Origin: Labedella phragmitis
GTDB taxonomy: Bacteria; Actinomycetota; Actinomycetes; Actinomycetales; Microbacteriaceae
Direction of reading: 5' to 3'
Assembly: GCF_004078635.1 (NCBI RefSeq)
Contig: NZ_RZNB01000004.1
Coordinates: 248,001 to 312,000 of the forward strand
Length of the DNA stretch: 64,000 bases
Part shown: in pieces, positions 20,482-50,258 of the stretch
Layout: the number at the start of each line of letters is the position of its first letter
How positions within the stretch are numbered: the stretch's first letter is position 1
Translations under genes and position numbers: made by a program
Notes under the pieces: generated by a model
Seen by the model: the letters and a program-made list of their open reading frames with translations, nothing else
What the model was told of the DNA's origin: nothing
The model's database searches: none

Positions 20482-20997
20482 TCAGTCCTGCTCGTCGCGT
20501 TCCCACGGCCAGCGCGGGACGGCTCCGGGCCGAGCGTCGGCGACGGCGGAGTAGGCGACCGCGACGACCGCTGCGATGGCGCCGGCGAGGTACGGGAACG
20601 CCGAGGCGAGCGTCGAGCCCGCGAACGCGACGCCCTCGAACACCGCACCCTCCTCGAGAGCCACGAGCGCGGCGCCCGACAGCACGTAGGCGAGGAGGAC
20701 GGCGACACCGACGACGACGGGCCAGGAGCGCTGCCGCACCCGTGACGCCGGGCGCCGGGCGTCGCGCAGGAGCGCGACGCCCGTGACGATCACGGCCGCC
20801 GCGATCATGGCAGGGCCGACGAGCGCACCGGTGCCGGCGCGCGCGACGACGTCGACGTCCGCGAGGAGGCTCACGAAGCCGAACGCACACACCACGAGGG
20901 CGAGGTGGAGGACGACGGCGAAGGCGGCGACGACGGTCGCCCGGTCCCGCCCCGACCGTCGCTCGTCGTCCGGCCCGCCGACCCGCCCGTCAGTCAT
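20482..20997 (-). CDS. Four-helix integral membrane protein
   Basis: The 171-residue protein has a short polar N-terminus (MTDGRVGGPDDERRSGRD). Four hydrophobic segments follow, at about 20-45, 55-75, 90-112 and 125-150, before a basic/acidic tail ending WPWERDEQD. The family is not recognised. Its start overlaps the end of the TgpA-like gene by eight bases, so it is the last tightly coupled gene of module A and may be a membrane partner of that protein. Confidence 0.7.
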   Translation of the reverse strand: MTDGRVGGPDDERRSGRDRATVVAAFAVVLHLALVVCAFGFVSLLADVDVVARAGTGALVGPAMIAAAVIVTGVALLRDARRPASRVRQRSWPVVVGVAVLLAYVLSGAALVALEEGAVFEGVAFAGSTLASAFPYLAGAIAAVVAVAYSAVADARPGAVPRWPWERDEQD

Positions 20998-23416
20998 CGT
21001 TCCCCCGGCCCACGTGATCGGTCTCGCGCCGACCGCGCGTCGGCGCGCGCCGGGCGGGCGACGACGTCCCCCGTCGCAGTCCGAGGGAACGCAGGGACAC
21101 GAGAGCGAGGAGGCGTCCGCGCCGGTCGACGCGTGAGTCGAGGGAGGCCCGGAGGTCGTCGACGAGGCTCCACGCGCGGTCGGCGTCGCCGTCGCTCGGC
21201 TCCATCGTGGAGAAGGTGACGCGGTCGGCGAGCACGGCGAGGCGATGTGCGCCGCGCGCGCCGTGCAGGTCCGCGAGTTCGTGGCGTGTGACCGACGGGG
21301 GCGGCTCGATGCCGTGGTCGACGACGGCGTCCCTGAACTCGCGCCAGCCGGCGACGACCCTGTCGGCGGGGTCGGGCGTACGGCGTCGGAGCGACCGTCG
21401 CCGCGCCTTCGCCGCGATGACCGCGATGAACGGCGAGAGGATGACGGCGACGACGATGACGACCCAGGACAGGACGCGAGCGATCTGGAGGAGGACGGCG
21501 AGGAACGGGTCGAGGACGGGCTGATCCTCCGGCTCGCTCGAGTCCGGTGCGGTCTGCTCGCTCCTGTCCGGCTCCTCCTCCGGCTGCGGCTGGAGGTCCT
21601 GGTACGGGCGGGCGATGAGCGTCGGGTCCTCCGGCTGCTCCTCGGGGACCGGGCGTTCCTCGGGGGTCGGGTCGATCGCGACCCAGCCCCGGCCGGCCGC
21701 CCTGACCTCGATCCACGCCGCGATGTCGGATCCCGTGAAGGCGACGGGACCGTCGGTCGCGCCCGTCGTGTTCGCGAACCCCATGACGACGCGCGAGGGG
21801 AAGCCGAGTTGGCGCGCGGCGAGCGCAGCGAGGGACGCGTACTGCTCACCGTCCCCCACCATCGGCGAGTCGCTGAGGAGGCGCGAGAGCCGGTCGAGGC
21901 CGTGCCCGGAGGGGCTCGCGGGCTCGTCGTCTCCGACGCCGTGACTGATGTAGCCGACGGAGCGGATGCCCTCGAGCACCGCCGCGAGGTTCTCGCCGGG
22001 TGCGGCACCGGCCGTCGAGTAGGCGTCGAGCACGTCGAGCAGACCCTCGGGCGAATCCCCCGGCTTGTCGGCGGCGCCGCCGGGGACGAGCGAACCGACG
22101 CCGTCCGGCGCGACGAGTTCCGGTTCGACGGCGTCGACGGTGTAGCCGTCGCCCGTGCGGAGCTCCGCCGTCACCGCGGCCGTCCCGGCGTTCGCGTTGT
22201 AGTAGAGCGAGTCGGCGAGTGACGCGCGTCGCTCCCCCGCGAACTCGACGGAGCCGAGGTAGCCGCTGCCGGGCAACCAGACTCCCTCGTAGGAGCCGAT
22301 CGTGACGGTCGTGGTGCTCGGGGTCCCGGCGACGGTCGGGTCGAGTCGGAACGGGAGCCGCTCGAAGGAGCCGGACGCGCTCGGGTCCTCGGCGCTTCCG
22401 ACGTTCCACACGACGCCGTCGAAGTCGTCCATGACCGCGAGACGGATCCGCGGGGAGGCAAGCCCCTCGGCGGTCAGCATGACCTCGTCGGCCCGCCCGT
22501 CGCGGTGGTACGCGCGGAACGTCGACAGCGGGCTCGGATAGTCGCGCGGGTTGAACGGCCGTTCGACGGCGTCGCGAGCGACGGCGCGTTCGCCTGCGGG
22601 AGGAAGGAGCGCGACGGCGCCGGTCGCCGCCGTGACGGCGACGACCACGACGATCACGGCGGCGATGATCGACGAGACGACCGAGCGGCGGCGGTCGCCC
22701 CGCGAGAAGGCGACGGCGCCCGTGACGTCCGTCGACGTCGCTGCGGAGACGGCGGCGCGGCGCTCGCGGAGACCCGTGAGCCAGAGGAGGAGGACACCGG
22801 CGAGGAGCGCGCTCACGACGACAGCGTTCCCGGGGGCGGAGCCCCGGGAACCACCGGGGCCGAGGACGATGCCCGCGACGAGGAGGAGGGGCGGCACGGC
22901 GGTCGCGAGCTCCGGGAGGCGTGTACGCAGAGCGATCGAGGTCGTGAGGATCGTGGCGAGGAGGACGAGGAGGAGGGCGGGGACGAGGAGCGCCTGGTAG
23001 TCGCCGACCGGGGTCGCGATGGTGAGCAGCCGCTTCCACGACAGGACGACGCCCTCGGCGAGCGCGACGAGCCCGTCGGGTGACGGCAGCACGCGAGCGA
23101 TCGCGAGCGAGGGGACCGCGAGGGGCACGCCGACGAGCGCGAACGCGGCGACGGCCCACACCGTCATGATCCACGGCCCGGTCCCCCGCCGGGCGCCGAC
23201 GACGGCGATGGTTTGACCGACGAGGATCCCGCCCGCGACGACGAGGAGGAAGGCCGTCGACGCGTAGACGGGCCACAGCGCGGCACTCGCGATCGCGATC
23301 GCGATCGACGAGACGACGGCGGTCGCCCACACGAAGCGCGACGACGTGCCCGACCGTGTCGGACGGGATCCTGCCGTTCGCGCTCGTCGCGCCTCCGCCC
23401 GCGTCGTCGCACTCAT
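20990..23416 (-). CDS. TgpA-like membrane protein with degenerate transglutaminase domain (module A)
   Basis: The 808-residue protein has about six N-terminal membrane helices (DUF3488-like, to about residue 240) and a large extracytoplasmic part with a transglutaminase-like core (about 495-590). A Pro/Glu-rich stalk, one more helix (about 625-650) and a cytoplasmic DUF4129-like tail follow. In active TgpA proteins the core reads G-x-C-E-H-Y-A, D-A-H-A-W and V-D-P-T. Here they read GDGEQYA (Gly523 for Cys), DIAAW (Ala566 for His) and IDPT (Asp582 kept). The enzyme is therefore expected to be inactive and to act as a scaffold or binding protein. The ATG overlaps the DUF58 stop (ATGA). Confidence 0.88.
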   Translation of the reverse strand: MSATTRAEARRARTAGSRPTRSGTSSRFVWATAVVSSIAIAIASAALWPVYASTAFLLVVAGGILVGQTIAVVGARRGTGPWIMTVWAVAAFALVGVPLAVPSLAIARVLPSPDGLVALAEGVVLSWKRLLTIATPVGDYQALLVPALLLVLLATILTTSIALRTRLPELATAVPPLLLVAGIVLGPGGSRGSAPGNAVVVSALLAGVLLLWLTGLRERRAAVSAATSTDVTGAVAFSRGDRRRSVVSSIIAAVIVVVVAVTAATGAVALLPPAGERAVARDAVERPFNPRDYPSPLSTFRAYHRDGRADEVMLTAEGLASPRIRLAVMDDFDGVVWNVGSAEDPSASGSFERLPFRLDPTVAGTPSTTTVTIGSYEGVWLPGSGYLGSVEFAGERRASLADSLYYNANAGTAAVTAELRTGDGYTVDAVEPELVAPDGVGSLVPGGAADKPGDSPEGLLDVLDAYSTAGAAPGENLAAVLEGIRSVGYISHGVGDDEPASPSGHGLDRLSRLLSDSPMVGDGEQYASLAALAARQLGFPSRVVMGFANTTGATDGPVAFTGSDIAAWIEVRAAGRGWVAIDPTPEERPVPEEQPEDPTLIARPYQDLQPQPEEEPDRSEQTAPDSSEPEDQPVLDPFLAVLLQIARVLSWVVIVVAVILSPFIAVIAAKARRRSLRRRTPDPADRVVAGWREFRDAVVDHGIEPPPSVTRHELADLHGARGAHRLAVLADRVTFSTMEPSDGDADRAWSLVDDLRASLDSRVDRRGRLLALVSLRSLGLRRGTSSPARRAPTRGRRETDHVGRGNDD

Positions 23417-24735
23417 ACGCCCGTCCTCAGAAGGGACGCTGACAGGTCCTCGAGGAAGCCGATCGTGAGCACGGTGAGGTCGCCGACGCGGCGCATGCTC
23501 GGGACGATCTCGGGATCGCACACGACGGCGACGACTTCGACGCCCGGCGGGAGGTTGGCCGCCGCGGCCATGAGCGACGTCGCCGTCGCCCGCGAGCCGC
23601 ACACGAGGAACGCGAGCGAGACGCCGGCGATGCGTTCGGAGGCGAAGCGCACGACGTCGCCGATGCGGAGCGTCCCGGGCCGCGGATCGACGCGGCACAG
23701 GTCGTCGAGCAGTCGTGCGGGTGAGAGCGAGGCGAGGTGGTTGACGGCCGACGCCGCCCGCGGTCGCGCGGCGGTTCCCGCGGTGTCCATCACGGCGCTC
23801 GCGACGACCGAGACGTCGCGACCGTCGGCGATCGCGCGGGTCCCGAGGGAACCGGCGACGCTCACCGCCATCTCGAACTCCTCCTCGGTGGCGAACTCCT
23901 CGGGGTGGAGAGCGAGCACGACGAGGAGATGGCTGCGACGGCTCTCCTCGAACTGCCGCACCATGTACTGCCCCGTCCGCGCCGTGCTCTTCCAGTGGAT
24001 CGCGCGACGTTCGTCGCCCGGGACGTACTCGCGTAGCGAGTGGAACGACAGGTCGCTCGCGGTGAGCTCGCTCGTCGGGATGCCTTCGAGGTCGCGGATG
24101 AAGCCCGTGCTGATGCTCGGGATGGAGATCGTGCGCGGATGCACGAACAGATCGACCCTGTCGTCCCACCGGCGCTCGCGCTTGACGATCCCGATCGGAT
24201 CGGCCCTGATCGTCCGCACCGGCCCGATCGGCACCACTCCCCGCCGAGTCCCGGTCATGACGAACGTGTCCTCGAACCGCGCGCCGACGGCGAGGCCGGG
24301 GATCGGGAACACCGCGACGGCCTCGCCGACCGGGACCTCGACGCTGACCCGCCCGAGCCGGTGGCGCGTCGGGTTCGCGACGGCGAGGTGGATCGCGGCC
24401 TGATCGCCGACGACGACGCGCGACACGGGGATCGACATCGTCGCCTCGTGACGGGAGCGACCGACGAGGAACGCGACCGCGACGAGCAGCACGACGGACC
24501 CAGCCCATCCGATGAGCACGAGTTCCGTCCAGGCCGCGACGTACCCTGCGAGAAGGGCGACGACGACGACCCCCGCGATCACCCATCCGAGGGGCTCGAC
24601 GACCGCCGTGAGCCGACGCCAGCCTGCGATGACCCGCGACGACACCCCCGAGACGGCGGCGACGGTCGCGGCGATCGCCGTTGCGAGCACCCCGACCCTC
24701 TCGCCGTGCTCGTCGGGGCGTCGGGTCGTCGTCAT
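23413..24735 (-). CDS. DUF58 domain protein (module A)
   Basis: The 440-residue protein has two membrane helices (about residues 48-90) followed by an Ig-like segment. The DUF58 core contains FHSLREYVPGDERRAIHWKSTARTGQ, the family signature, then a von Willebrand A-like fold. DUF58 proteins are regular partners of MoxR ATPases and TgpA-type proteins. They are thought to help MoxR act on membrane or periplasmic clients. Both ends overlap neighbours by four bases (ATGA), upstream with moxR and downstream with the TgpA-like gene, so the three are made in coupled translation. Confidence 0.93.
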   Translation of the reverse strand: MTTTRRPDEHGERVGVLATAIAATVAAVSGVSSRVIAGWRRLTAVVEPLGWVIAGVVVVALLAGYVAAWTELVLIGWAGSVVLLVAVAFLVGRSRHEATMSIPVSRVVVGDQAAIHLAVANPTRHRLGRVSVEVPVGEAVAVFPIPGLAVGARFEDTFVMTGTRRGVVPIGPVRTIRADPIGIVKRERRWDDRVDLFVHPRTISIPSISTGFIRDLEGIPTSELTASDLSFHSLREYVPGDERRAIHWKSTARTGQYMVRQFEESRRSHLLVVLALHPEEFATEEEFEMAVSVAGSLGTRAIADGRDVSVVASAVMDTAGTAARPRAASAVNHLASLSPARLLDDLCRVDPRPGTLRIGDVVRFASERIAGVSLAFLVCGSRATATSLMAAAANLPPGVEVVAVVCDPEIVPSMRRVGDLTVLTIGFLEDLSASLLRTGV

Positions 24736-25700
24736 CGGGCGCCCTGCTCCTGGGGCGGAGGGGTGTCGATGAGGACTCGGGAGATGACGTTCGACGGGGT
24801 GACCCCGTCGAATTCGGCCTCGGGATCGAGGACGAGCCGGTGACCGAGGACGGCCTCGGCGAGCGCCTTGACGTCGTCGGGGATCACGAAGGAGCGGCCG
24901 GCGGACGCCGCGAGGGCACGCGTACCGCGGACGAGAGCGAGGGCTGCGCGCACGCTCGCCCCGAGCCTGACCTCGGACGCCGAGCGGGTGCCCTCCACGA
25001 TCCGTGCGATGTAGTCGTTGATCGAGGAGTCGACGTGCACCGTCGAGACGAGAGAGACCATGTCGGCGACGGTGGCCGCGGGGACGACGGCCGAGACCTC
25101 CGCCGCGTCGCTCGAGTGCGGGTTCTCGAGAATGCGCATCGTCGACTGGTGGTCCGGGTAACCGATGGACGTCTTGAGGAGGAATCGGTCGAGCTGGGCC
25201 TCCGGGAGCCGGTAGGTCCCCGCCTGCTCGATGGGGTTCTGCGTCGCGATGACCATGAACGGGCGACCGACCGGGTGCCGGACGCCGTCGACGGTCACCT
25301 GCCCCTCCTCCATGACCTCGAGGAGGGCCGATTGCGTCTTGGGGCTCGCACGGTTGATCTCGTCGGCGAGCACGACGTTCGCGAAGATCGGCCCGCGGTG
25401 GAACTCGAACTCCTGGGACTTCTGGTCGTAGATGCTGACGCCCGTGATATCGCCGGGGAGGAGGTCGGGCGTGAACTGGACCCGGCTCGCGGTGCCGTCG
25501 ATGCTCTGCGCCATCGCCCGGGCGAGGGAGGTCTTGCCCGTTCCCGGGACGTCCTCGAGCAGGAGATGGCCACCGCTGAAGAGCGCGACGAACGCGAGGC
25601 GGATCACGTGACTCTTGCCGAGCAGGATCTGGTCGACGTTCGCGATCATTCGGTCGCACACCCCCGCGAACCACGTGGCCTGCTCAGGGGTCATCGTCAT
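24732..25700 (-). CDS. MoxR-family AAA+ ATPase (module A)
   Basis: The 322-residue ATPase has Walker A DVPGTGKTSLARAM, Walker B LADEINRASPKTQSALLEVMEE, sensor 1 ATQNPIEQAGTYRLPEAQLDRF and the C-terminal lid DDVKALAEAVLGHRL. These are the MoxR hallmarks. MoxR proteins are chaperone-like remodelling ATPases that assemble or activate partner complexes. It follows the giant surface-protein gene by 55 bases and overlaps the DUF58 gene. The first ATG (25700) is used. A second ATG two codons later is possible. Confidence 0.95.
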   Translation of the reverse strand: MTMTPEQATWFAGVCDRMIANVDQILLGKSHVIRLAFVALFSGGHLLLEDVPGTGKTSLARAMAQSIDGTASRVQFTPDLLPGDITGVSIYDQKSQEFEFHRGPIFANVVLADEINRASPKTQSALLEVMEEGQVTVDGVRHPVGRPFMVIATQNPIEQAGTYRLPEAQLDRFLLKTSIGYPDHQSTMRILENPHSSDAAEVSAVVPAATVADMVSLVSTVHVDSSINDYIARIVEGTRSASEVRLGASVRAALALVRGTRALAASAGRSFVIPDDVKALAEAVLGHRLVLDPEAEFDGVTPSNVISRVLIDTPPPQEQGAR

Positions 25701-25755: not shown

Positions 25756-28700
25756 TCACGGCGCCGCCTTCCACTGATTGGCGTACACCGGCTGGCCGGG
25801 CACCGCGACCCTCACCCAGATGTTGCCACGAGTGACCGGGGTGTTCTCGCACGAACCGACCTGGTCGAGCGGAATCGCCTCCGCGACGAAGTTGTCGCAA
25901 CTGAACTCGAGTGCGGTGCTCGGGACGCCGCCGATCGGGTGGCCGTCGGAGAAGGTCATCGTGAGCCCGTCGAGCTGCGGCGTGACACGCGTGCTCACGA
26001 CGGGGCCGGGGGTCGCGTCGGGCGCCGACCAGTCGCTGCAGAGCCGGCCGGCGCCGAACTCCTCGCAGACCTGGAATTGGACGTCCAACACGTAGCCGTA
26101 CTGTCGGTCCCTCGGCACGATCATGCGTGACGAATCGAGCACGCCCTCGGTCGCGACACCGTTCCCCGTCGCACGGTAGGAGACGGTCGTGGAGAGTGCG
26201 CCGCCGCCCGAGGCGTACCGCAGGTCGTTGACACTGTAGGAGTAGAGCCCCTTACTGAAGGGGGCGAGCGCGCCCCACCCGGTCGTTTCGGGCGTGCCGG
26301 GCCGTTGCAGCGGCGTCGCCGACACCTCAGGGCTTCCCGTGCAGCCCTGGCCGTTGTACGCGAAGACGACGGCTCGGTAGTCGACGTTCGGAGTGAGGCC
26401 CGTGAACGTGTGACTCGTCGCGACGCCCGCGTCGACGAACTCGCCGTCGGGGTCGGCGAGTCGGAGCTGCGGCGCGCCCTGGTCGACGCCGTCGACGCGG
26501 CAGCTCGGGAGCGAGCCGTCCGACGAGAGCGCGACGTAGTACCGCTGCACGGCAGCACCGTTGCCCGAGAACAGACCGGCCCACGAGACGGTCACCTGGG
26601 TCCCGGCCGACCGGTCGGCGTCGGCGCTCGGTGATCCCGACACGGTCGGGGCACCGGCCGGGGTGTTCGACCCCGAGACGCGGTTCCACTGCGGAGCGGC
26701 GCCCGTGAAGTCGTTGCGCGACTGCACGGCGAACGCGACGGGCGTGCCGTTCGGGATCGTCTCCGACCGGATGCTCTGCACGTAACGCGTGCCGACGGGG
26801 TCGTCACGGCCGACCGTGACGGTCTGAGTGACGGAGCCGACGGTGACGTCGTACGCGACGATGGGGCTCGCTCCCGAGGCGTCGGCGGGCTTCGCCCACG
26901 ACACGCGGAGTCCCGAGTCGAGGGGCGTCGAGGCGAGGCTCGTGGGGGCCGGCGGGATGAGGTCGGACCAGGCCGGCGTGCCGAGAGCGGTGGGGTCACT
27001 CGTTCCGACGGCGTTCGTCGCGGTGACCTGGACGCGCACCGCGTTATCCCGGCCGTTGCCCGGCGTCCCCACCGCGCACACCGACGACGAGCACGGAGTC
27101 GTCGACACGACCTCGCCCGTCGCGACGCTCGTGAGCGTGACGGTGAAGGACTCGATCGGCGCGTTGTTGAACGCGCCGGGGGTCCATCCGAGGGTGAGGG
27201 ACCGGTCCGTGACGGCTCGAAGACTCAATGCGGTCACGGGCTCCGGCCGGTCGCGGACCGAGATGCGGACGCCTCCCCAGACGAATCGACTCGGGTCGCC
27301 GGTCGCGTCGGCGACCTGGTACTGCAGGGACACGTCGGCGATCGCGGCGTCGTCGTCCACCTCGACCGTGAGAACGCGATTGTCCTCGGACGGCGAGATC
27401 GAGATGCCCGACGGGAGGCCGGCGCCGTCCATCCCTCGAACGGCGACGACGCGCAGGGGCGTGTCAGGGAAGGGGTTGGTCGCGCTGTCGTTCGCGAGCA
27501 CGTCGACGGTCGTCGTGGAGCCGCGTGAGACGGGTACGCCGTCGGCCGCCGGCGAGGCGAGAGGCAGGGTCGAGGGCACGACGCGGACGTCGATCCGTCC
27601 GGCCGTCCCGGCGTTCTCGGAATCCGCCACGGCGATCGAGACGGAACCGCTCGACCCCACGGGAGCCGAGGAGGCGATGGTGAGGTCGAGCGATCGCCCG
27701 TCGATCTCGGCGGCGATGCCCTCGGGCAGCGGAGCGGCGACGGTGTAGCCGAGCTCCTCGATGCTCTCCGGGTACGGATAGGTCGTGAGCTTCGCGAGGT
27801 CGAGGGTCCGCGTCTCGCCGGGCTCCACGTCGAGGGTCGCACCCGTGAAGACGGGGGGCTGGTTGTCCCGTGGAGTGACGGTGATGGGGAGGACGAGGGT
27901 CGCGATCCGTCCGTCGGGGTCGTCGGCGCTCTCGCCGTCGGTCACCTCGAACAGGATCGACGCCGGCCCGAAGTACTCGTCGGCGCTCGTGAACTCGAGG
28001 GTGTCGTCGTCGACGACGAGGTCGTCGCCGTTGCCGTGAGCGGCCCGTACCGCCGCGCGGTCGGTGAGCCTGACATCACGGCCCCCGATCGCCACGACGT
28101 GATCGGACAGGTCGATGCGCACCGTCTCGCCGCTGCGGACCGTGACCGCGTCGGCGTCGCTCCTCAACTGCGGCAGCGCTTCCTCGAGGCCAGGGACGCG
28201 GACGAAGGCCCAGCCTTCGACGCCCTCCTCGTCCGGGTTCGAGACGCTGAAGGGCACGACCCTGCTGGAGTCCCCCACCTCGACGACGACGGCGCCGCGC
28301 TCGTCGACCGTCGCGACGTCTCCGAAGCGCTCCGGGACCCCGACCTCGAGATCGGAGACGGGTCCGTCGAGGTAGCTCACGTTGGCCCGGACGTCGACCG
28401 TGACGGTCTCACGGTCGAGGACGTCCTCGACGGTCAGGACCGAGTCGCGCGCGACGGGGACGGCCGGCGGCGCGTCGGCGTCCGTCACGACCGTGATGAA
28501 GTTCGACGACGAGCCGCCGCGCTCGTTGGCGATCGTGTAGACGAAACCGAACTGCCCCTCGACGTCGGGGAGTTCGACGTCCACCGCGTCGCCGGTGATC
28601 GTCGCGGCGATCCCCGGATCCGCCGGCTCGACCGACACGATCCGGAGAGAACCGCCGTCGGGGTCGGAGTCGTTCTCGAGCACCGGTACGGTGACGGTGC

Positions 28701-39238: not shown

Positions 39239-39250
39239 GCCCTCGAGGTC

Positions 39251-40219
39251 CTACGCTGCCCGCGCGGCCGGCGGCGTCACCCGGGCGATCACACGGGTGA
39301 TGATGTCGATCGCGGTCGTACCCGCGAACTCGGCCTCCGCGTCGACGATGATGCGGTGCGCGAGGACGTGGGGGGCGAGCTCGCGGACGTCGTCCGGCGT
39401 CACGTAGAGCCGTCCCTGCGAGAGAGCCCACGTCTTCGCGATGCGCGCGAGGGCGAGCCCACCGCGCATGCTCACTCCGAGCGCCGAGTCCTCGTCGTCG
39501 CGCGTCCCCTGCAGCAGGTCCGTGATGTACTCCATGACGGCGCGCTCGACGTGCACCTCCGACGCCAGTTGGATCATCGCGTTGACGGCTTCTGCACCGA
39601 TGATCGCCGAGACGCGGGAGGCGCGCGCGCGGTTCGCGGCGTCCATGAGCAGGTCGACGCTCGTGTCACGGTCGGGGTAGCCGAGCGACGTCTTCACGAG
39701 GAACCGGTCGAGCTGGGCCTCCGGCAGCTTGTACGTTCCGGCCTGCTCCACGGGGTTCTGCGTCGCGATCACCATGAAGGGACGGCCGACGACGTGCGTC
39801 TCACCATCCACCGTGATGAGCCCCTCCTCCATGACCTCGAGGAGAGCCGACTGCGTCTTCGGCGAGGCACGGTTGATCTCGTCGGCGAGCACGATCTGGG
39901 CGAAGATCGGGCCCTTGTGGAACTCGAACTCCCGCGTGTTCTGGTTGTAGATCGTGACACCCGTCACGTCGGACGGCAGCAGGTCCGGCGTGAACTGGAT
40001 GCGCGAGTGCGCGCCGTCGAGGGTGTTCGCGAGCGCCTTCGCGAGCACCGTCTTCCCCGTGCCGGGGTAGTCCTCGAGCAGCACGTGGCCCTCGCTCACC
40101 ATCGCGGCGACGACGAGCCGGATGACGTCCTGCTTGCCGAGGATCGCTTTGTCGACGTTGTCGACGAGGCTCGTGAAGGCGTCGCGGAACCACGCGGCCT
40201 GTTCGGTCGTGACGGGCAC
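39251..40219 (-). CDS. MoxR-family AAA+ ATPase (module B)
   Basis: The 322-residue ATPase has Walker A DYPGTGKTVLAKAL, Walker B LADEINRASPKTQSALLEVMEEG and sensor ATQNPVEQAGTYKLPEAQLDRF. It has the same length as the module A copy and is strongly similar to it. The start is GTG with AAGGAG five bases upstream. It follows the giant gene by 69 bases. Expected to remodel DUF58/TgpA partners or the giant protein. Confidence 0.95.
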   Translation of the reverse strand: MPVTTEQAAWFRDAFTSLVDNVDKAILGKQDVIRLVVAAMVSEGHVLLEDYPGTGKTVLAKALANTLDGAHSRIQFTPDLLPSDVTGVTIYNQNTREFEFHKGPIFAQIVLADEINRASPKTQSALLEVMEEGLITVDGETHVVGRPFMVIATQNPVEQAGTYKLPEAQLDRFLVKTSLGYPDRDTSVDLLMDAANRARASRVSAIIGAEAVNAMIQLASEVHVERAVMEYITDLLQGTRDDEDSALGVSMRGGLALARIAKTWALSQGRLYVTPDDVRELAPHVLAHRIIVDAEAEFAGTTAIDIITRVIARVTPPAARAA

Positions 40220-43200: not shown

Positions 43201-45547
43201 TCGTCAACGGCGCCACGGGAACGACCGTCACGGTCGTCGTCGCGTCGTGCGTGCCATCCGAGAGCGTGTACGAGAACTGCAGTTGGCGATCGAGCGCCTC
43301 ATTCGCGGTGACGCGCACGACCGACTGTCCCAACAATTCGACCGAGAGCGCGGCGGCATCGTCGGGAGTCGCGATCGACCGCACCGCGAGCACCGACCCA
43401 GACGGGGACACGTCGTTGTTGAGCACGGCGAGGCTCGTCGGCTCGTTCGGGCGCAGATAGAGGGTGTCGCGGACGGCGATCGGCTTGCCGATCTCGTCGG
43501 GGAGTTCTGCTACGTCGACGCGAGCGAGACCGACGCTCGTCTTGGGTCCGGCGGCGAGCGTGTACTTCACGTAGTACGTGCCGGGCGCGCCGGCGGAGAG
43601 GGACAGCACTCCGGAGTCGGTGTTCGGGGTGATTCCGAGGCCGCCGGTGATCGCCTCCGCGCCGACGAGGGCGAGAGGAGCGCCAGACGGGGAAACGTCG
43701 TTGTCGAGGACGTCGAGTTCCACGGCCTGCCCGACGAAGGTGTCGGTGAAGTCGGGGGTGCCGACGGGGTTCATCGACCCCGCCGGTTTCGCGTCGAGCG
43801 CGAATGTGCCCGTCGCTTCGGTGGTGCCGTCGGACACCACGAACACGACGTCGCGGACACCCAACTGGCCCGAGGAGTGGGTGACGGTCACGAACCCGTC
43901 GGGAGAGAACCTGACCCGGTCCCCGGCCTTCGACGCTGCGCTCTTGAGATAGATGTCGTCGCCGTCCGGATCACGCCAGTCCATGAGCGCGTTGTACGAC
44001 ACCGTCTGCCCCGACTCGACCGACGTCGCCCCCACGCGCTGCTCCGCCGGAGGCTGGTTGAGTTCATACGGGACCACGCGGATCGACAGCGACGCCGTCG
44101 ACACCCCACCGGGGCGACCGTCGGACACGGTGTACCGAAGCGAGATGGTCCCGCTGGTCTTCGCCTCCGACGGCGTGAACTGCAGGGCACGGCCCCCGTC
44201 GATGTACTCGAGGGTTCCGTCCGACTCGGACACGCCCGTGTCGGAGATGACGGTCAAGACGTCGCCATCGGGGTCGGTGTCGTTGTCCAGGACCGGCAGC
44301 ACGGTCGAGCGACCGGGGCGCGCACCGATGTCGTCATCGCGGGCGAGCGGCGGCCGGTTCGTGTCGGTGCGCTCCGCGATCGTGTCCTCGAACGACTGCC
44401 GCGACGCCTTCTCGTCGCCCTCCTCGCCCTCGTCCTCCTCGGGAGGGGTCACCTCTTCCCAGTTCTGGACGAGGCGCATGTTCGCGTCGACGAGCCAGAT
44501 GTCACCGGTGAAGAGATTGTTCAACGCGATGATCTGCCGATTCACGCGGAACATCAGCGGCGACCCGTCCGCCGTGGGCTCGACGTCCTGCCGGTCGATC
44601 TCCGTCTCGTCGCACACCGCGAGGTACCGGCTCGCCGACGACCACGCCCCGTGCCAGCACCCACCGAGGTTCACGGGGGCCGCGACGTCGTCGGCGCTCG
44701 TCGCGGGAGCCGAGACGTTCGCCGACACGACCATCGGGTCGCCGTCGCCCTCGAGCGGCACGGCGATGAGCGAGTCCCCCGTCGCGACGAGCGCGACGTC
44801 GTCGGACGGGCTCGACTGCTGCAGCACGAGACCGTCCTCCGGGAGGTCGATCGTCGACCCGTCGCCGCGCACGATCCGGCCGTCCGTGCGATCGAAGATG
44901 ACGGGCTTCTCCCCCGCGGCCGCGACCTCGATGTCCTCGAGCGGCGGAAGCTTCTGCGTCGACGACTCGTTACCGTCCGACGGGAGCGTGTGGAGTTCGC
45001 GCTCCTCGGTGGAGACGGCGAACACCGTCCCCGTCGATGACACCGCGACGTGCGCCTCGGCGCCGAGTTCGAGGATCGGCTCGGTGTCGACGGTGCTCAG
45101 CTCCAGGCCCGTCTCGACATCCGTCGTCCACAACTCGCCGTCCGGGGACAGCACGGCAAGAGTCGTCGCGCCGAGAGCGACGCTCGAGCCCGCCGGGATG
45201 TCCGTCTGCTCGACGAGAGTCGTGTAGGAGGGGTCGATCATCTCGATCGTCGACCCCGTGAGGTCGTGCAGCACGACGGTCTCCCCGTCCTGCAGCACGT
45301 CGATCTCGTTCGACACCGTCTGCACGGCCGCGTCGAGCTCCTCGATCTGACGGTTCAACCGCCCCGCGAGCAGCTCCGACCCGTTCGTGACCCAGACGTC
45401 CTTCGCCTCGAGCGTGACATCCGTGACGGGGAACCCGTCATGCAGGATCGCGAACGACACCGGAACGGCGACGAGCACAGACACGGCGACGACGGACGCG
45501 GTGACCTTCCGGCCGCGCAACCACGCCCGAATCCCCAACCCCGTCAC
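40289..45547 (-). CDS. Giant single-pass surface protein with Ig-like and fibronectin type III repeats (module B)
   Basis: The 1752-residue protein has the same plan as the module A giant: basic start, signal-anchor helix (about residues 17-36), a propeller-like region to about 380, then an acidic spacer. Serial VLDNDxxPxG Ig/cadherin-like domains run from about 400 to 1460 (for example PVLDNDTDPDGD). Two fibronectin type III domains, a run of about 12 prolines (near 1645) and a Trp/Tyr/Gly-rich C-terminal domain (GYDGPRTIEG to YGPFSFP) follow. The start is the GTG at 45547, because no suitable ATG precedes the anchor helix and this aligns with the paralogue. The ribosome binding site GAGGGGAT is close to it. 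No sorting signal is seen. Confidence 0.87.
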   Translation of the reverse strand: MTGLGIRAWLRGRKVTASVVAVSVLVAVPVSFAILHDGFPVTDVTLEAKDVWVTNGSELLAGRLNRQIEELDAAVQTVSNEIDVLQDGETVVLHDLTGSTIEMIDPSYTTLVEQTDIPAGSSVALGATTLAVLSPDGELWTTDVETGLELSTVDTEPILELGAEAHVAVSSTGTVFAVSTEERELHTLPSDGNESSTQKLPPLEDIEVAAAGEKPVIFDRTDGRIVRGDGSTIDLPEDGLVLQQSSPSDDVALVATGDSLIAVPLEGDGDPMVVSANVSAPATSADDVAAPVNLGGCWHGAWSSASRYLAVCDETEIDRQDVEPTADGSPLMFRVNRQIIALNNLFTGDIWLVDANMRLVQNWEEVTPPEEDEGEEGDEKASRQSFEDTIAERTDTNRPPLARDDDIGARPGRSTVLPVLDNDTDPDGDVLTVISDTGVSESDGTLEYIDGGRALQFTPSEAKTSGTISLRYTVSDGRPGGVSTASLSIRVVPYELNQPPAEQRVGATSVESGQTVSYNALMDWRDPDGDDIYLKSAASKAGDRVRFSPDGFVTVTHSSGQLGVRDVVFVVSDGTTEATGTFALDAKPAGSMNPVGTPDFTDTFVGQAVELDVLDNDVSPSGAPLALVGAEAITGGLGITPNTDSGVLSLSAGAPGTYYVKYTLAAGPKTSVGLARVDVAELPDEIGKPIAVRDTLYLRPNEPTSLAVLNNDVSPSGSVLAVRSIATPDDAAALSVELLGQSVVRVTANEALDRQLQFSYTLSDGTHDATTTVTVVPVAPLTKHQAPILQDDFVKVRAGDIASVPVLDNDLHPDNALMTVDQDLMKAAEKGLSFVTGDRVRYQAPSEPGVYTATYQVTDEFQQKAVGNVVFTVIPVDADNNLAPTAPTLTARVFAGADVEVNVPLDGLDGDGDSVVFDGITGAQELGLVRDATSDTFVYEANPTRYGTDTFQYRVRDVYGATAVGTIKIAVIERPAQDMSPIAVDDRIEVRPGRIVTVPVLGNDSDPNAYPIELTNELGDVPDDVAAEVNGGTVEIEAPDEETSFAIRYTISNGHGGTDNAYVQVRVTEEARIQPPGVEDHVIEAREVIAEKTVDIDLREGASNPGGRVQDLVPTIEGPNAGAVELLEDGTARVTLGDTRTAITYRLTNEIDGLSSAAFIVVPPFSDGLPPVLIEEERIVNKNETKTWKLSEIAESPTGKGIALTDPEKVTSNRSDGTPNYVNDQTVTFTPAKDYRGPASLTFEVSDGTALGVSLLTMPITVGDPEMKDEPPTFTNPTLSIEADGTPFPIDLRESAAHPNADVLRSVTFGSLGQPTGGIEANLAGSTLTASAPFGVQPGTSTTIPITVTYREFQVVGQVNIRVVASSRPLPQAYEDTMPDARKNTTVTVPVLDNDFNPFPGQDLTITDVAVESGQASAAVSGTNVVIETGAPKSQSISVIYTIQDATKDPSRTSQGRASVTVTDVPDAPPAPTLKPSDRSIAVTVGATPANNGSEVTRYTVTRNDGTTRTDCSPGVPCSFSGTNGTTYSFTVTATNGVGESTASAAASEVSYGKPGAPRNLSLSKDSDWAKSTFSMAWAAPSDSGGRIDRYEWTFSGGGTGSTAQTRATSAEMKAGTYSFTVVACSPAGCGPASTSASASVEDQPPPPPPPPPPPPVPTVTDVFGYDGPRTIEGVTNAYKVGWSWENFGPGDHRVTPKFNRGNGWENIAGTYTSSGEKGETRSTAYIQNGSWTANGVLLTIDGKDYGPFSFP
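40581..40617 (-). repeat. GGN-rich tract coding for a polyproline hinge
   Basis: A run of GGT/GGC/GGA triplets on the plus strand encodes about 12 consecutive prolines on the minus strand. It separates the FN3 repeats from the C-terminal domain of the module B giant protein and probably forms a stiff polyproline-II spacer. Confidence 0.85.
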
Positions 45548-45652: not shown

Positions 45653-45674
45653 CGTCCGGCTCACGTGCCGGACG
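45653..45674 (-). terminator. Hairpin between the FHA-HTH gene and the giant gene
   Basis: CGTCCGGC (45653-45660) and GCCGGACG (45667-45674) form a perfect 8-bp stem with a six-base loop. It lies in the 190-base gap after the FHA-HTH stop, the widest gap inside the 30-kb gene run apart from those at its ends. It may partly end the kinase transcript ahead of the giant gene. Confidence 0.5.
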
Positions 45675-45737
45675 ACATCCGGCCCGCCCCCCAGTTCAGG
45701 CGAGTCGACGCCGTCGAACGGCGCGGATGCTCGCGCC

Positions 45738-46475
45738 TCAGACCGTCGGCTCCTGCAGGTTGCCCGTCGTCTCGGCGGCATCCTCCGCCGCGTTCCGCTC
45801 GAGCAGGATGAGGTCGTCCGCGTCGACGAGTCGCGTCGACACGGCGTACTCGACGAGTCGTGCGCGGCGGTTGGTCGCGAGCTTCCCACGACCCCCGCGG
45901 AGCCCCTGCACACCATGGCGATCGAGCTTGTCGCACACGTTGTCGAGCTTCCTGTTGAACGCCGTCTGCGTCCACCCGAGCCGCGCGGCGGCGTCCGCCG
46001 ACGCCGGGATCTCGCCCCGACCGGGCGAATTCTGCTTGAGGATGTCCTCGGCGAGCGCCACGACCAGCAGACGCTGGCTCGTCGTGAGGGTGATCGGTCC
46101 GACGGTCGTCTCACCCGTCGACGCCGACGTCAACTGCGACGTCGCGAAGTAGTCCGACGTGGAGTGGATCGCGAAATCGTACGTCGTGGATCCGGCGCTG
46201 AAGAGCACGTTGAGCGTCGGGAACACGATGGGAAGCCGTGCGTTCGGCGCGAGCCACGCCTGGACCTGCCCCGAGTCGTCCGTGACCGTCGCGGAGAGCA
46301 GCGTGCCGACGTTCGCCAGCCACCACAGGTCGTTCTCCTTCGACACGGCGAGGAAGCGCCGGTGCAGGAAGGGGTTCTCGTCGATCACGAGGTCGGCGTC
46401 GCGGCCGATGTAGAAGGGCTCGTCGGGGTGGACGTCGTACCACTCCCCGCAGAACTCGATGCGTGGGTTGCTCAC
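45738..46475 (-). CDS. Degenerate FHA domain fused to helix-turn-helix-like domain
   Basis: The 245-residue protein begins VSNPRIEFCGEWYDVHPDEPFYIGRDADL. This is an FHA-like N-terminus (about 1-110) with the GRD motif and NPFLHRRF, but without the usual Ser two or three before His and without the Asn-Gly turn. Its phosphothreonine binding is therefore doubtful. The C-terminal half (about 130-210) has the helical pattern ASADAAARLGWTQTAFNRKLDNVCDKL, typical of a winged or sigma-region-4-like DNA-binding domain. GTG at 46475 overlaps the kinase stop (GTGA) and has GGAG 11 bases upstream. It may link kinase signalling to transcription. Confidence 0.82.
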   Translation of the reverse strand: MSNPRIEFCGEWYDVHPDEPFYIGRDADLVIDENPFLHRRFLAVSKENDLWWLANVGTLLSATVTDDSGQVQAWLAPNARLPIVFPTLNVLFSAGSTTYDFAIHSTSDYFATSQLTSASTGETTVGPITLTTSQRLLVVALAEDILKQNSPGRGEIPASADAAARLGWTQTAFNRKLDNVCDKLDRHGVQGLRGGRGKLATNRRARLVEYAVSTRLVDADDLILLERNAAEDAAETTGNLQEPTV

Positions 46476-48181
46476 GATGTGCACATCTCCAGAGGTTCGG
46501 GTGATTGTCGACCGGAGCGCACGATCCACACGGATACGCACACCTCGTCGCCGGGCTCGATGCCGCCGACCGTCGCCGACGGTGTTCCCGTCGGTGTCTT
46601 GTCGCCGGGGACGCCGTCGGTGCGCTGCCAGATGTAGCGGTCGCCCTCGCGTGCGTCGGGGTTGGTCCAGGAGAAGGTGACGGAGGCCCCGCCGTCGCCG
46701 ATGGCGATGTCGCCCTCTCCCGGCGCCGGAACGCCCTCAACGTCGAGCGGATCGTTCTCCACCGGGTTCGACGTCGCGACGGGTTCCTCCTCGCCTCCGA
46801 GCAGGATGCCGGCCGTCACGGCTCCGCCCACGAGCACGACGACGAGTCCGATCACGATCGCGGGGATCCATCGCCGTCGCGCCCGCACCGTGGAACGGCG
46901 CGCACCGCGGACGGTCGCGTCGTCGACTCCGGCACCGATCGCACCGGTGTGGGGAACGTGGTCGGCCGTCGACCACCCTGCCGTTCCGGCCGCAGGCGCT
47001 GCGACCCGTGCCGCGTCCGTCGGGCCGGGGTCCTGTCGCACGACGACGGGGCGCCGCATGATCGTCCGGTCGTCGTCGCCCGCTGCCCCGTCCGGCTGCG
47101 ACGCCGTCGGCCCCGCCGGGGGTGAGACGATGCGCCCGGTCGGTCCGACCCCCGGTTTCTGCGCCTCGACCGTCCGGATGTCGCGCATTCGGGTCGCGTC
47201 GGGGTCCCCGCCCTCGGGTCGCGTGTTCGACGGGATCGCGAGGTTCGGCACGTCGATCGTCGTCGGGCTGAACGAGAGCTCGAGCTCCACTCCCTGCAGA
47301 GCGCGCGCGAACTCGAGCACCGAGTCGTACCGCGACGCCTTGTCGACGGCCATACCGCGAGCGAGCACCAGCAGGAGGGATCGCGGGATGTCGGGGCGTT
47401 CGTCCTCGAGCGGAGTGATCGTGCCCCGCTCGATGCGGCCGATCAGGTCCACCATGCCGTTGGGCTTGCCGCGCACCTCGAACGGCGTGTGACCGGCGAG
47501 GAGCGTGTAGACGGTGGCAGCGAGTGAGAACACATCGCTGCGCACGTCCGTCTGCGGGTGGTCCGCGAACATCTCGGGAGGCGACCACGGGATCGACATG
47601 CCGATCGTCGGGCTCGTACCGCCGTCGGCCTCCCCCGTCGGAGAGCCGGCCGACGGCAGGAGTCCGGCGTGCGCATGGTCAGGATCGAGCGCGGCGGAGA
47701 TGCCGAAGTCGGTGAGCGCCGGCCACCCGTAAGCGTTGGTGAGCACGTTCGCCGGCTTGATGTCGCGGTGGAGGATTCCCGCGGCGTGAGCCGTCGCGAC
47801 GGCGCTCGACAAGCGCACGCCCGTCCGCAGCGCGTCCGCGACCGTGAAGCGGTGGTCCTTGTACTGCTCGGCGAGGCTCGGGCCGGCGCAGTACTCCATG
47901 ACGAAGTAGGGGCGCCCGTCCGCTGCGACCGCGGCCCCGTAGATCGTGACGATGTAGGGATGCGCGGAGAGCTGCGCCATGAGGTTCGCCTCGCCGACGA
48001 ACGCCGATCGCGACTGGTCGTCGACCGTCTCGGCGGCGAGCACCTTGACCGCCACCTCACGGCGCGGCAGCTCCTGTTCGTACAGGTAGACGTCGCTGAA
48101 CCCGCCGGATCCGAGGGGCCGGACGAAGGTCAGGCCCGGGATGTCGGGCGGACTCGTGGGAGCACGGCGCACCCTCGTCAC
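46472..48181 (-). CDS. Transmembrane Ser/Thr protein kinase (module B)
   Basis: The 569-residue kinase has LGSGGFSDVY, Lys46 (VAVKV), HRDIKPAN with Asp140, DFG at 158-160 and PWSPPEM. All catalytic residues are present. A Pro/Arg-rich juxtamembrane part with several Thr residues leads to one membrane helix (about 438-461) and a 108-residue ectodomain. The ectodomain shares the two-Cys FN3-like pattern of the module A kinase (FSWT, then CVSVWIVRSGR, then EMC). The start is GTG and overlaps the FHA stop (GTGA). It probably phosphorylates the linked FHA proteins, with the PP2C gene product as its antagonist. Confidence 0.93.
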   Translation of the reverse strand: MTRVRRAPTSPPDIPGLTFVRPLGSGGFSDVYLYEQELPRREVAVKVLAAETVDDQSRSAFVGEANLMAQLSAHPYIVTIYGAAVAADGRPYFVMEYCAGPSLAEQYKDHRFTVADALRTGVRLSSAVATAHAAGILHRDIKPANVLTNAYGWPALTDFGISAALDPDHAHAGLLPSAGSPTGEADGGTSPTIGMSIPWSPPEMFADHPQTDVRSDVFSLAATVYTLLAGHTPFEVRGKPNGMVDLIGRIERGTITPLEDERPDIPRSLLLVLARGMAVDKASRYDSVLEFARALQGVELELSFSPTTIDVPNLAIPSNTRPEGGDPDATRMRDIRTVEAQKPGVGPTGRIVSPPAGPTASQPDGAAGDDDRTIMRRPVVVRQDPGPTDAARVAAPAAGTAGWSTADHVPHTGAIGAGVDDATVRGARRSTVRARRRWIPAIVIGLVVVLVGGAVTAGILLGGEEEPVATSNPVENDPLDVEGVPAPGEGDIAIGDGGASVTFSWTNPDAREGDRYIWQRTDGVPGDKTPTGTPSATVGGIEPGDEVCVSVWIVRSGRQSPEPLEMCTS

Positions 48182-49416
48182 ACTCCCCTGACGCGCATCG
48201 TGACACCGCCGCCCAGATCGATGAGGGTACCCGCGATGACGGGGGTCGGCTCACCGCCACGGAGCTTCTCCGGCGGACGACCGGGGACGATGACGATCGT
48301 GCCGTTCGAGGAGTGCAGATCCGTCACGACGACCGTGCCGCCCTCGACGCCGACGCGGACGTGATTGCGCGAGATGTCGTCGCCGACGAGCGTCACGAGG
48401 TGCGGGAGGGCGGAAGCCGGAACTCCCGCGACGCTCGGCGCCCGGCCGAGCACGACGGGGACGTCGAGCGGCTGCCGGGACCCCGATGGCAGTTCGAGCT
48501 CGTAGCGCTGCACCGCGAACGACTGCGGGACCGCAGCGGGGACGTGCGCCCCCTGGCGGGCCGCGCGCAGGTCCTCGGCGAGCACGGTGAGCCCGTCGTG
48601 GTCGCCGAGGGTGTCCGCCGGCACTGGAGCGTCGGAGGCACCGGGCGCGGGCGGGAGCAGTGGTGCCGACGGAAGCGACGGCGCAGGTGCCAGGGGCGGA
48701 GCGGGCGGAGCGGGCGGAGCGGGCGTCCCTGCGGCCGCAGCGGCACGAGCCGCGCGGACCGCGCGCGACGGACGGGCGATCGTGTGACCCTCGATCGGGT
48801 CGTCGTCGATCGGGTCGTCGTCGATCGCGTCGTCGTCGAGGGAAACGGGCACCGCTGGTCCCGCGTCATTGCCAGCGGTCGCCTGCTCGACGTGGCGCCC
48901 TGCGCCCCGTTCTCCGTCCAGCGCTACGTCCCGCTCGCCGTTCGGCACCGCGTCCCGCTCGTCCTCCTTCACGGAGATGCGCGACACCCAGACGGAACCG
49001 GCGTCGAGCTCGAGATCGACCACGGGGGCGCCGGGGTCCCCGAGTTCGAAGGTGACGGCTGTCGCGCCGTCGATGTGCCGCTCCGTCCAGCTCGCGAAGC
49101 CGCGCGCTTCGACGCTCTCCTCACCGGCTCGGGTCGACACGAGCGCCCGGCCTTCACCGCGCGCGACGATGCCGACGCCGTCCTCCTCGAGGCGACCGGG
49201 CAGCCAGAACGCGAGCACGAACGACGGCGTGCTCGTGAGCCCGGCCGACGTGAGCGCGTCGAGGAGCCCCTGCACCGTCGAACCTCCGCGGGTGAGCGCG
49301 ACGAGCGGCTCGATACGGTCGCTCGTGAGCTCGAGACGCACCGCGAGCAGGCAACCGGGTGCCGCGACGGCGAGCCACTCGGGCGCGACGGTCGGGCTGT
49401 AGCGGAATACGGGCAT
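48178..49416 (-). CDS. FHA domain protein with long N-terminal region (module B)
   Basis: The 412-residue protein begins MPVFRYSPTVAPEWLAVAAPG, parallel to the module A protein at 33145. A middle region has DDDPI repeats and an APPAPPAPP stretch. It ends in an FHA domain (about 320-405) with VLGRAPSV, ISRNH and SSNGTIVI, the phosphothreonine-binding residues. It starts 11 bases after the phosphatase stop and overlaps the kinase gene. Likely a direct kinase substrate or adaptor. Confidence 0.88.
   Translation of the reverse strand: MPVFRYSPTVAPEWLAVAAPGCLLAVRLELTSDRIEPLVALTRGGSTVQGLLDALTSAGLTSTPSFVLAFWLPGRLEEDGVGIVARGEGRALVSTRAGEESVEARGFASWTERHIDGATAVTFELGDPGAPVVDLELDAGSVWVSRISVKEDERDAVPNGERDVALDGERGAGRHVEQATAGNDAGPAVPVSLDDDAIDDDPIDDDPIEGHTIARPSRAVRAARAAAAAGTPAPPAPPAPPLAPAPSLPSAPLLPPAPGASDAPVPADTLGDHDGLTVLAEDLRAARQGAHVPAAVPQSFAVQRYELELPSGSRQPLDVPVVLGRAPSVAGVPASALPHLVTLVGDDISRNHVRVGVEGGTVVVTDLHSSNGTIVIVPGRPPEKLRGGEPTPVIAGTLIDLGGGVTMRVRGV
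48791..48835 (-). repeat. Three tandem 15-bp repeats coding for acidic DDDPI steps
   Basis: The 15-bp unit TCGATCGGGTCGTCG occurs twice exactly and once with one change, encoding DDDPI/DDDAI in the linker of the FHA protein. It is an in-frame repeat likely to vary in copy number. Confidence 0.85.
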
Positions 49417-49427
49417 GCGTCAGGACC

Positions 49428-50258
49428 TCATGTTCGGGGAAGCGTCTCTTCCAGGACGCCGAGCGGCCTGTCGTCGTGGTAACCGGGGCTCTGCGGTCCC
49501 GTCTCGGTGCTCACGGCGTCGACGACGACGACGGTGACATTGTCCCGCGAGCCCTGCCGGATCGCTCGTTCGACGAGCGCGGACGCTGCGTTCTCGACGC
49601 CCGCGTCGAGGTCGCCGACGATCTCCGCCTCCGACACGTCGCGCGTGAGCCCGTCCGAGCAGATCACGAAGGTCTGGCGTCCCGAGACGGGGATCAGCCA
49701 CACGTCGGGGTCCGCGTCGTCCTCGACCCCGACGGCGCGCGTCACGACGTTCCGATCGGGATGGGACGCGGCCTGCTCGCGCGTGATCGATCCGTCGTCG
49801 AGGAGTTCCTGAACGGCGGAGTGGTCGACGGTCACCTGGCGGAGTCCGCGCTCGTCCCGCAGGTAGACGCGGGAGTCGCCGATGTTGAAGACCATCCAGT
49901 GCAGGTCGATCTGCGTCGAGAGACTCACGAGAGCGACGCCGGCGATGGTCGTTCCGGCGATGCCGCCCCGTGTGCTCCACGACCGCACCGTGGCGTTCGC
50001 CGCCGTGATCGCCGTGAAGATCGCTTCGGGCGCGGTCGGACGTCCGGGGCGCACGCTCAGACCGAGCTGCTCGACCATCGCGCGACTCGCGAGGTCGCCG
50101 CGGTGGTGACCGCCGAGGCCGTCTGCGACGGCGAAGACCGGCGCGGCGCTGAAGAGGCTGTCCTCGTTGACCGCCCTGACCGGTCCGGTCTCGGATCTCC
50201 CCGCGGCGGCGATCGAGATCTCCGACCGTTCATCGGCGATCAGGATGCGATTGTCCAC
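49428..50258 (-). CDS. PP2C-family Ser/Thr protein phosphatase
   Basis: The 276-residue phosphatase has the PP2C motifs RAVNEDSLF, VADGLGGHHRGDLAS, FNIGDSRVYL, ICSDGLTRDV and QGSRDNVTVVVV. The metal-binding aspartates are present, so it should be active. The GTG at 50258 has GGAAGG eight bases upstream, and translation upstream of it is low-complexity. It is the only phosphatase in the 30-kb run and would reverse the action of one or both kinases. It appears to be the first gene of module B, with a 121-base gap before it. Confidence 0.93.
   Translation of the reverse strand: MDNRILIADERSEISIAAAGRSETGPVRAVNEDSLFSAAPVFAVADGLGGHHRGDLASRAMVEQLGLSVRPGRPTAPEAIFTAITAANATVRSWSTRGGIAGTTIAGVALVSLSTQIDLHWMVFNIGDSRVYLRDERGLRQVTVDHSAVQELLDDGSITREQAASHPDRNVVTRAVGVEDDADPDVWLIPVSGRQTFVICSDGLTRDVSEAEIVGDLDAGVENAASALVERAIRQGSRDNVTVVVVDAVSTETGPQSPGYHDDRPLGVLEETLPRT

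Follow-up and report, generated by a model that had tools for sequence, protein, structure and literature searches.

The window analysed here, a 64,000-nucleotide stretch of Labedella phragmitis DNA (assembly GCF_004078635.1, contig NZ_RZNB01000004.1, positions 248,001 to 312,000), carries a long run of minus-strand genes for Ser/Thr kinases, FHA-domain proteins, giant surface proteins (G), MoxR ATPases, DUF58 proteins and TgpA-like pseudo-transglutaminases, with every core family present twice. The first-pass annotation of this DNA knew of no described system with the full set; the cluster type is in fact already known, being that of the PFNA operon of Bifidobacterium (PMC8430577, PMC6803598). 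It is nearly certain that the run is made up of a pair of paralogous modules of PFNA type, A and B, lying head to tail, the simplest account being that B was inserted downstream of A in the ancestor of the genus. The best explanation overall, to which we assign a probability of roughly 0.55, joins these modules to a mechanism in which a TgpA-like protein that has lost its chemistry would couple the giant protein to DUF58 and MoxR. Compared with the literature searched, as far as its excerpts go, the following appear to be new: how widely the cluster occurs, the tie between lost catalysis and G, the presence of two old module types together with the mapped site of insertion, and an FHA-plus-helical member.

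Gene layout and identity with the PFNA operon

The genome measures 3.52 Mb, and the window is part of its contig 12. Translation and Pfam searches supported the cluster genes, all on the minus strand and at or near the positions first assigned to them, and bore out the two-copy gene order on one strand. The order of transcription is PP2C, FHA1, PK1, FHTH, G1, MoxR1, DUF58-1, TgpA1 and FHA2, followed by FHA3, PK2, G2, MoxR2, DUF58-2 and TgpA2. The Pfam families found were PP2C, FHA, Pkinase, Big_9 with fn3, MoxR (AAA_3 plus AAA_lid_2), DUF58 and Transglut_core, and TgpA_N was above its cut-off in copy 2 alone. The features are as follows.

49428..50258, minus: PP2C phosphatase, module A, the sole one in the double cluster; PF13672 34.7 bits (cut-off 24); start inferred
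48178..49416, minus: FHA1, module A, N-terminal unknown domain and C-terminal FHA; PF00498 28.7 bits; 27% identity to FHA3
46472..48181, minus: PK1, Ser/Thr kinase with one hydrophobic helix and a short extracellular tail, FN3-like by eye; PF00069 124.4 bits, E 7.1e-36
45738..46484, minus: FHTH, module A, FHA fold plus helical C-terminal part; 248 amino acids; start inferred
40289..45547, minus: G1, module A, giant with N-terminal hydrophobic anchor (by eye), predicted beta-propeller, Big_9 immunoglobulin-like (Ig) array and fn3; 1752 amino acids; Big_9 in 7 stretches, fn3 in 1; start inferred
39251..40219, minus: MoxR1, AAA+ ATPase; PF07726 213.8 bits
37976..39238, minus: DUF58-1 (vWA-like); PF01882 48 bits
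35400..37979, minus: TgpA1, pseudo-transglutaminase with several transmembrane segments; PF01841 60.4 bits; TgpA_N 24.4 bits, below its cut-off of 30
34481..35422, minus: FHA2, final gene of module A, found after TgpA in single-module relatives; PF00498 32.8 bits
20990..34480, minus: module B together with the gap upstream of it; its genes, about 13.4 kb, stand between FHA2 and the DUF6121-like gene
33145..34350, minus: FHA3, module B; PF00498 29.1 bits
31629..33059, minus: PK2, module B, Ser/Thr kinase with extracellular tail; PF00069 128.1 bits; start inferred
25756..31629, minus: G2, module B, giant of 1957 amino acids; Big_9 in 6 stretches, fn3 in 1; 34% identity to G1
24732..25700, minus: MoxR2; PF07726 214.1 bits
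23413..24735, minus: DUF58-2; PF01882 47.8 bits
20990..23416, minus: TgpA2, pseudo-transglutaminase; PF11992 52.8 bits, PF01841 43.6 bits
20482..20997, minus: DUF6121-like small membrane protein, a flank outside the module that marks the insertion site; PF19616 21.8 bits, below its cut-off of 27
50380..51705, minus: low-complexity membrane protein upstream, membership uncertain; no Pfam match above its cut-off

The first gene list had missed the gene between kinase 1 and giant 1 that encodes the 248-amino-acid FHA-plus-helical protein (46484-45738), and the end point that it gave to the cluster, 20482, is the end of the DUF6121-like membrane protein (20997-20482), outside the module. From the 441-amino-acid gene downward, 7 of the 15 gene boundaries overlap, by 1, 4, 4, 4, 4, 13 and 23 bases, some of these lengths depending on inferred start codons. 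G1 is preceded by a gap of 190 bases. The 23-base overlap at 35400-35422 exists, and joins TgpA1 to FHA2 within module A, not the two copies as had been supposed. Because FHA2 comes after TgpA in single-module relatives, the junction of the modules was placed at the 130-base gap between the FHA2 stop (34481) and the FHA3 start (34350). Terminator-like sites were looked for on the minus strand from 19000 to 52800 and none was found, a result of little weight since few are expected by chance.

In Bifidobacterium, the PFNA operon comprises pkb2, fn3, aaa-atp (MoxR), duf58 and tgm, with prpC, a hypothetical gene and fha in some species (PMC8430577, PMC6803598). It has been described as bifidobacterial and species-specific, its TGM being taken for a transglutaminase or a presumed cysteine protease. 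In B. longum GT15 all eight genes form one co-transcribed set, and the MoxR of the operon is phosphorylated by Pkb2 (PMC8430577). The core order of kinase, giant FN3 protein, MoxR, DUF58 and TGM on one strand is present in both window modules, module A deviating by FHTH between kinase and giant. The membrane anchor (by eye), Ig-like repeats and FN3 of the PFNA protein are found in both window giants, with one significant fn3 stretch per copy compared with two FN3 domains in the published protein. The accessory PP2C and FHA genes are likewise present, and lie upstream here, unlike in PFNA.

B. saguini, named in a review as a bearer of all eight PFNA genes, allowed direct comparison. Its locus (L090) reads kinase-G-MoxR-DUF58-TgpA-PP2C-FHA, and each protein resembles its window counterpart, the kinase being only partly within the locus. 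Identity to the window is 30% over 1683 aligned positions for G, 56% for MoxR, 32-37% for TgpA, 29-33% for DUF58, 28% for PP2C and 35% for FHA, and the B. saguini giant has the same Big_9 plus fn3 architecture. The window and the PFNA operon thus share gene families, core order, homologous proteins and giant architecture; they differ in that two paralogous modules are joined here and that module A begins with PP2C-FHA and has the additional FHA-plus-helical gene. In the record of B. saguini DSM 23967, tgm (L090:9090-11608) is split across two frames. Another bifidobacterial locus (L057) is identical to that of B. olomucense (L089) over 360 matched residues.

Two further systems were compared. 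The MoxR-vWA-beta-propeller ternary systems (PMC7159879) likewise bring together a MoxR, a vWA-like partner and a beta-propeller; here, in Actinobacteria, the propeller is the predicted head of G and DUF58 is a separate gene, and the propeller-vWA fusion of those systems is lacking. The mycobacterial moxR1-DUF58-vWA locus, compared to PFNA in PMC12067865, also has MoxR adjoining DUF58, whereas the next gene encodes a vWA membrane protein, and the excerpt mentions no giant FN3 gene.

Other genes in the window include those for PilM and a prepilin peptidase (type IV pilus locus; 54017-56649, minus) shortly upstream of the cluster, an AcrB-type transporter (8987-13300, plus), which is unusual in a Gram-positive bacterium, and an EF-G-like protein (14719-16833, minus). 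Among loci L013-L052, the low-complexity protein at 50380..51705 has matches in own-genus loci L014, L015 and L017 alone. Several adjoining homologues of the lipoprotein-like 255-amino-acid protein at 51801-52568 were seen in a sister species (L014:9644-12779).

Catalytic residues of the TgpA-like protein and predicted folds

The label pseudo-transglutaminase given at first proved correct. In TgpA1 (L174) the catalytic Cys, His and acid are replaced by Gln, Thr and Tyr, and in TgpA2 (L191) Cys is Gly and His is Ala, with the Asp kept. The scan of named sequences had used the pattern [VI]GD[SED]EQYA and could not serve for counting the Cys, so the TgpA-like proteins were counted in loci reached through G. 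This set of 64 comprises 62 from such loci and the two of the window, 7 being from the own genus and one row truncated, with frames below 400 amino acids and one N-terminal piece without the core dropped. The result showed that the catalytic Cys is missing in 64 of 64 (Asp 21, Ser 13, Ala 11, Glu 10, Gln 6, Gly 3) and that none has a full Cys-His-Asp/Glu triad; the acid position is Glu in one. The former active-site loop, G-[D/T/N]-x-E-Q, has G in 64/64, D, T or N in 57, 4 and 3, E in 63/64 and Q in 64/64. The loop is thus conserved, not decayed, a pattern that fits a retained binding role.

TgpA-like proteins away from G are different. In the own genome, the only G-bearing one in which TgpA elsewhere was examined, the other TgpA on contig 2 has Cys, His and Glu. 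Nineteen genomes of the order without a G match were also searched, drawn from 20 listed of the 148 unmatched (G184 was omitted for fragments in the class search). Three had no TgpA match; the other 16 gave 21 matches, representing 20 distinct genes, all 20 with Cys, His and Glu/Asp, the weakest few of which may be other transglutaminase-domain proteins. In what was examined, then, the dead form accompanies G and the live form is met where G is absent. P. aeruginosa TgpA, which shares Transglut_core and a TgpA_N-like membrane part with the cluster proteins, still has its triad and has been put through transglutaminase assays (PMC3507681), whereas the cluster proteins have no catalytic Cys. The only Protein Data Bank sequence match of TgpA1 was 6g49/6g4h (E 0.003). 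MoxR-DUF58-transglutaminase trios are common (PMC6803598, citing Wong and Houry 2012); the trio here differs from trios in general in being bound to G, and usually to a kinase.

These counts leave almost no room for the view that the TgpA-like protein is a transglutaminase or cysteine protease acting on the giant by cross-linking or cleavage. PFNA papers name it so (PMC8430577, PMC6803598) and the Transglut_core domain is present, but neither the Cys nor the full triad occurs in any of the 64, and in the Bifidobacterium family itself, where the absence of the Cys is a further likeness to the window, the proteins reached through G have Ser at that position in 9/9 and the His in none.

The head of G was confidently modelled as an all-beta repeat domain with a predicted local distance difference test (pLDDT) score of 86.2 and a predicted template modelling (pTM) score of 0.76, the ten-residue means being mostly above 90 over residues 21-335. 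Foldseek placed an archaeal surface-layer propeller first and then BamB, with template modelling scores of 0.40-0.50 on the query, and the VIA list had Rsa4 and cytochrome cd1 nitrite reductase at its top and also contained designed eight-bladed proteins. We take the head to be a beta-propeller, probably eight-bladed.

FHTH had no Pfam match at E <= 1. Its AlphaFold2 model, built on a 267-amino-acid frame from 46541, was of moderate confidence (pLDDT 73.7, pTM 0.45), with FHA-1 of Rv1747 as the top Foldseek match (E 8.9e-6), and mean column identity is 61% across 21 sequences. The helical C-terminal part, read by eye and without a supporting match, is probably DNA-binding. MoxR nucleotide-site motifs were found in 61 of 63 and kinase motifs in 47 of 53 (two segments had no score); MoxR1 also matches bpMoxR, at 44 bits versus 214 for AAA_3. 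Four Bifidobacterium kinases (L054, L056-L058) have HHD instead of the HRD catalytic motif. The DxSxS motif is absent from the cluster DUF58 proteins and from the genome's other DUF58 too, and is thus uninformative.

Distribution, module types and the insertion site

A profile of the G head matched 248 of 396 genomes of the order, in 60 of 103 genera (E <= 1e-15), 50 of 296 genomes of the class (E <= 1e-10) and 10 of 197 genomes of the phylum, six of them beyond the class. The samples overlap and were evenly drawn, and 4, 5 and 8 candidates were scored per genome, respectively, so these counts are lower bounds; some class-level matches are short pieces or a distant, shorter form, and the six genomes beyond the class are counted on the G head. 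Among the best 80 of 556 confirmed stretches in the named scan, 20 were titled Bifidobacterium and one 'Bifidobacteriaceae bacterium'. The named loci also include Microbacterium, Cellulomonas, Cryobacterium, Leifsonia and Agromyces, all generally known as free-living, and other genera. According to PMC10688814, FN3 'is found only in Bifidobacterium'; this restriction is contradicted by these genera and by the G head in at least 248 of 396 order genomes, and was not counted as a valid defining feature of PFNA. The same evidence makes it very improbable that recognition of cytokines, as a device of host immunity, is the general function of the cluster, although FN3 fragments of B. longum bind TNF-alpha in vitro (PMC10688814, PMC12607495) and such a role may hold for some bifidobacteria.

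Gene order is well conserved. The six families had been open to the objection that they might rarely occur together; instead, G is followed by MoxR, DUF58 and TgpA as the next three same-strand genes for 44 of 48 giant genes, a hand-picked, not random, set reached through G and limited to loci that run on for at least 6 kb downstream (21 other entries were skipped for room). Loci reached, and thus selected, through TgpA qualified for the order in 72 of 73 cases, the exception (L160) having no MoxR match; three were skipped for room, and L096, L122, L136 and L141 show no G since the sequence ends. A kinase match lies within the locus for 41 of the 48 giant genes, and the kinase can stand before G, after TgpA or on the opposite strand. 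In L074-L077 (families f30-f32) the gene ahead of MoxR-DUF58-TgpA encodes a shorter protein that has the head; the three scanned (L074-L076) all show fn3, with L076 alone above the cut-off, and none shows an Ig family. In L078-L083 (genomes G299, G252 and G307) two adjoining giant genes precede one MoxR-DUF58-TgpA set, and one machine may serve two giants.

The two window copies are old paralogues. Over the best aligned stretches they share 57% identity in MoxR, 44% in the kinase, 37% in DUF58, 34% in the giant, 33% in TgpA and 27% in FHA1/FHA3. In other Microbacteriaceae genera, types A and B occur at separate loci (G005, G009, G011, G012, G024). Among 24 family loci beyond the own genus, 19 were of one type for all five core genes, 4 were consistent among the decided genes and one (L047) was mixed. 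MoxR, G head, DUF58 and TgpA were combined in one tree, rooted on L074-L077, in which window B joined loci of families f1 and f10 (clade support 1.0), window A fell in a separate clade (1.0) and the Bifidobacterium family formed its own clade (1.0), with several deeper nodes weak. L047, a Microbacteriaceae locus, grouped at support 1.0 with L062, L063 and L072, which come from a different family and a different order, a possible horizontal transfer.

Within the genus, A is followed by B in 4 of 4 species, the G002 contig starting within G1. Downstream of 13 type A loci, a DUF6121-like match was found in three, G004, G005 and Mycetocola reblochoni, in which TgpA1, FHA2, DUF6121 and the next gene, the same as in the window, are contiguous; FHA2 and the DUF6121-like gene are adjacent in loci L202, L198 and L151. 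The other ten had no DUF6121-like match in the stretch read, which is uninformative. The simplest account of these gene orders is that the module B of about 13.4 kb was inserted between FHA2 and the DUF6121-like gene. The first-pass annotation had implied a tandem duplication, and the head-to-tail order agrees with it, but a recent duplication in place is hardly credible: the copies are just 27-57% identical, each groups with a type that stands at a separate locus in other genera, the tree does not join them and the site occurs without module B in relatives. Because several type B relatives have their own PP2C (L025, L027, L029, L032-L035, L038, L043), which is missing from window module B, modules A and B may share one phosphatase.

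Proposed mechanism and alternatives

Alongside the observed linkage, homology, loss of catalytic residues, module cohesion and site without module B, and the propeller prediction, we infer every interaction, the client role of G and the direction of signalling. As a tentative proposal, somewhat short of an even chance, each module would build one mast-like surface protein through the pseudo-TgpA, DUF58-MoxR and phosphorylation. G would be anchored through its N-terminal hydrophobic helix, with the propeller seated on the outer side of the membrane, the wall spanned by the Ig repeats and the FN3 end as the outer contact. The TgpA-like protein, its chemistry lost, would act as a transmembrane coupler whose dead cleft grips part of G, most probably the propeller or the following linker, and its state would be relayed inward to DUF58 and MoxR. 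MoxR would then remodel or release the complex and so set the amount of G assembled or kept at the membrane. The kinase with its extracellular tail would phosphorylate MoxR as the switch, FHA proteins would read the phosphosites, PP2C would reset them, and the FHA-plus-helical protein would probably relay the state to gene expression. That the giants may be MoxR clients, as the first-pass annotation suggested, has already been proposed for PFNA (PMC10688814). For control of MoxR by the kinase, the action of Pkb2 in PFNA provides published support (PMC8430577). On a broader formulation, which we hold with the same reserve, this would be a phospho-gated actinobacterial machine in which a conserved pseudo-transglutaminase, its catalytic Cys replaced by a rebuilt and almost unvarying E-Q loop, serves as dedicated non-catalytic receptor for the juxtamembrane propeller of the wall-spanning giants and hands these to DUF58-MoxR; the L074-L077 form would be the simplest and bifidobacterial PFNA one specialised branch.

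Several points weigh against this reading. The TgpA-like proteins beside G retain the His in 12 of 64 (one gap) and the Asp in 33 of 64. The genomes called G-less were so called from a search scoring four candidates per genome, and in 6 of the 19 G was absent also in the all-candidate search. Giants L020, L040 and L068 have no adjoining MoxR-DUF58-TgpA and L061 has no MoxR match, so G may not always need the trio. Kinase, FHA and PP2C are less constant than the core four, standing after TgpA or on the opposite strand in L047, L070 and L071. The single-gene trees of MoxR and of G disagree on the side to which some loci outside the order (L070, L071) belong, and module B could have been lost at the site in the three relatives instead. 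As to the exceptional loci, the L068 giant frame is short (1123 amino acids) and may be a remnant; L061 (G678) has no MoxR match between G and DUF58, and in the second module of G678 (L062) MoxR matches flank G on both sides.

The strongest alternative puts signalling first: G would act as a sensor in the wall or at the surface and would be no client, passing tension or ligand binding via the pseudo-TgpA to the kinase and FHA proteins, with MoxR-DUF58 tuning the complex. The kinase with an extracellular tail, the several FHA proteins, PP2C and the conserved FHA-plus-helical protein of type A would suit it, and the PFNA authors propose sensing (PMC8430577); yet the constant core is G-MoxR-DUF58-TgpA, and it is the kinase, FHA and PP2C that vary in place and presence. 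We regard it as possible but clearly less likely than assembly of G by the module. Less likely still is that G is an ordinary adhesin merely co-expressed with genes that have no action on it. Adhesion through FN3 is reported for B. bifidum S17 (PMC12607495) and some G genes stand alone, but the constant order across many families, the cohesion of types and the tie between dead TgpA and G are hard to obtain from mere co-expression.

Taken together, a cluster studied as a Bifidobacterium-only tool for dealing with host immunity is an old, widespread actinobacterial system, and its wide range makes host immunity unlikely as the basic job. MoxR-DUF58-TgpA trios are poorly understood, and here the trio is paired with an obvious candidate client, in a type of cluster whose kinase is known in B. 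longum to phosphorylate MoxR. The missing Cys in all 64 proteins tells against one published mechanism and suggests a coupling role that is open to experiment, and genera with separate or joined modules offer natural tests of how MoxR and giant are paired.

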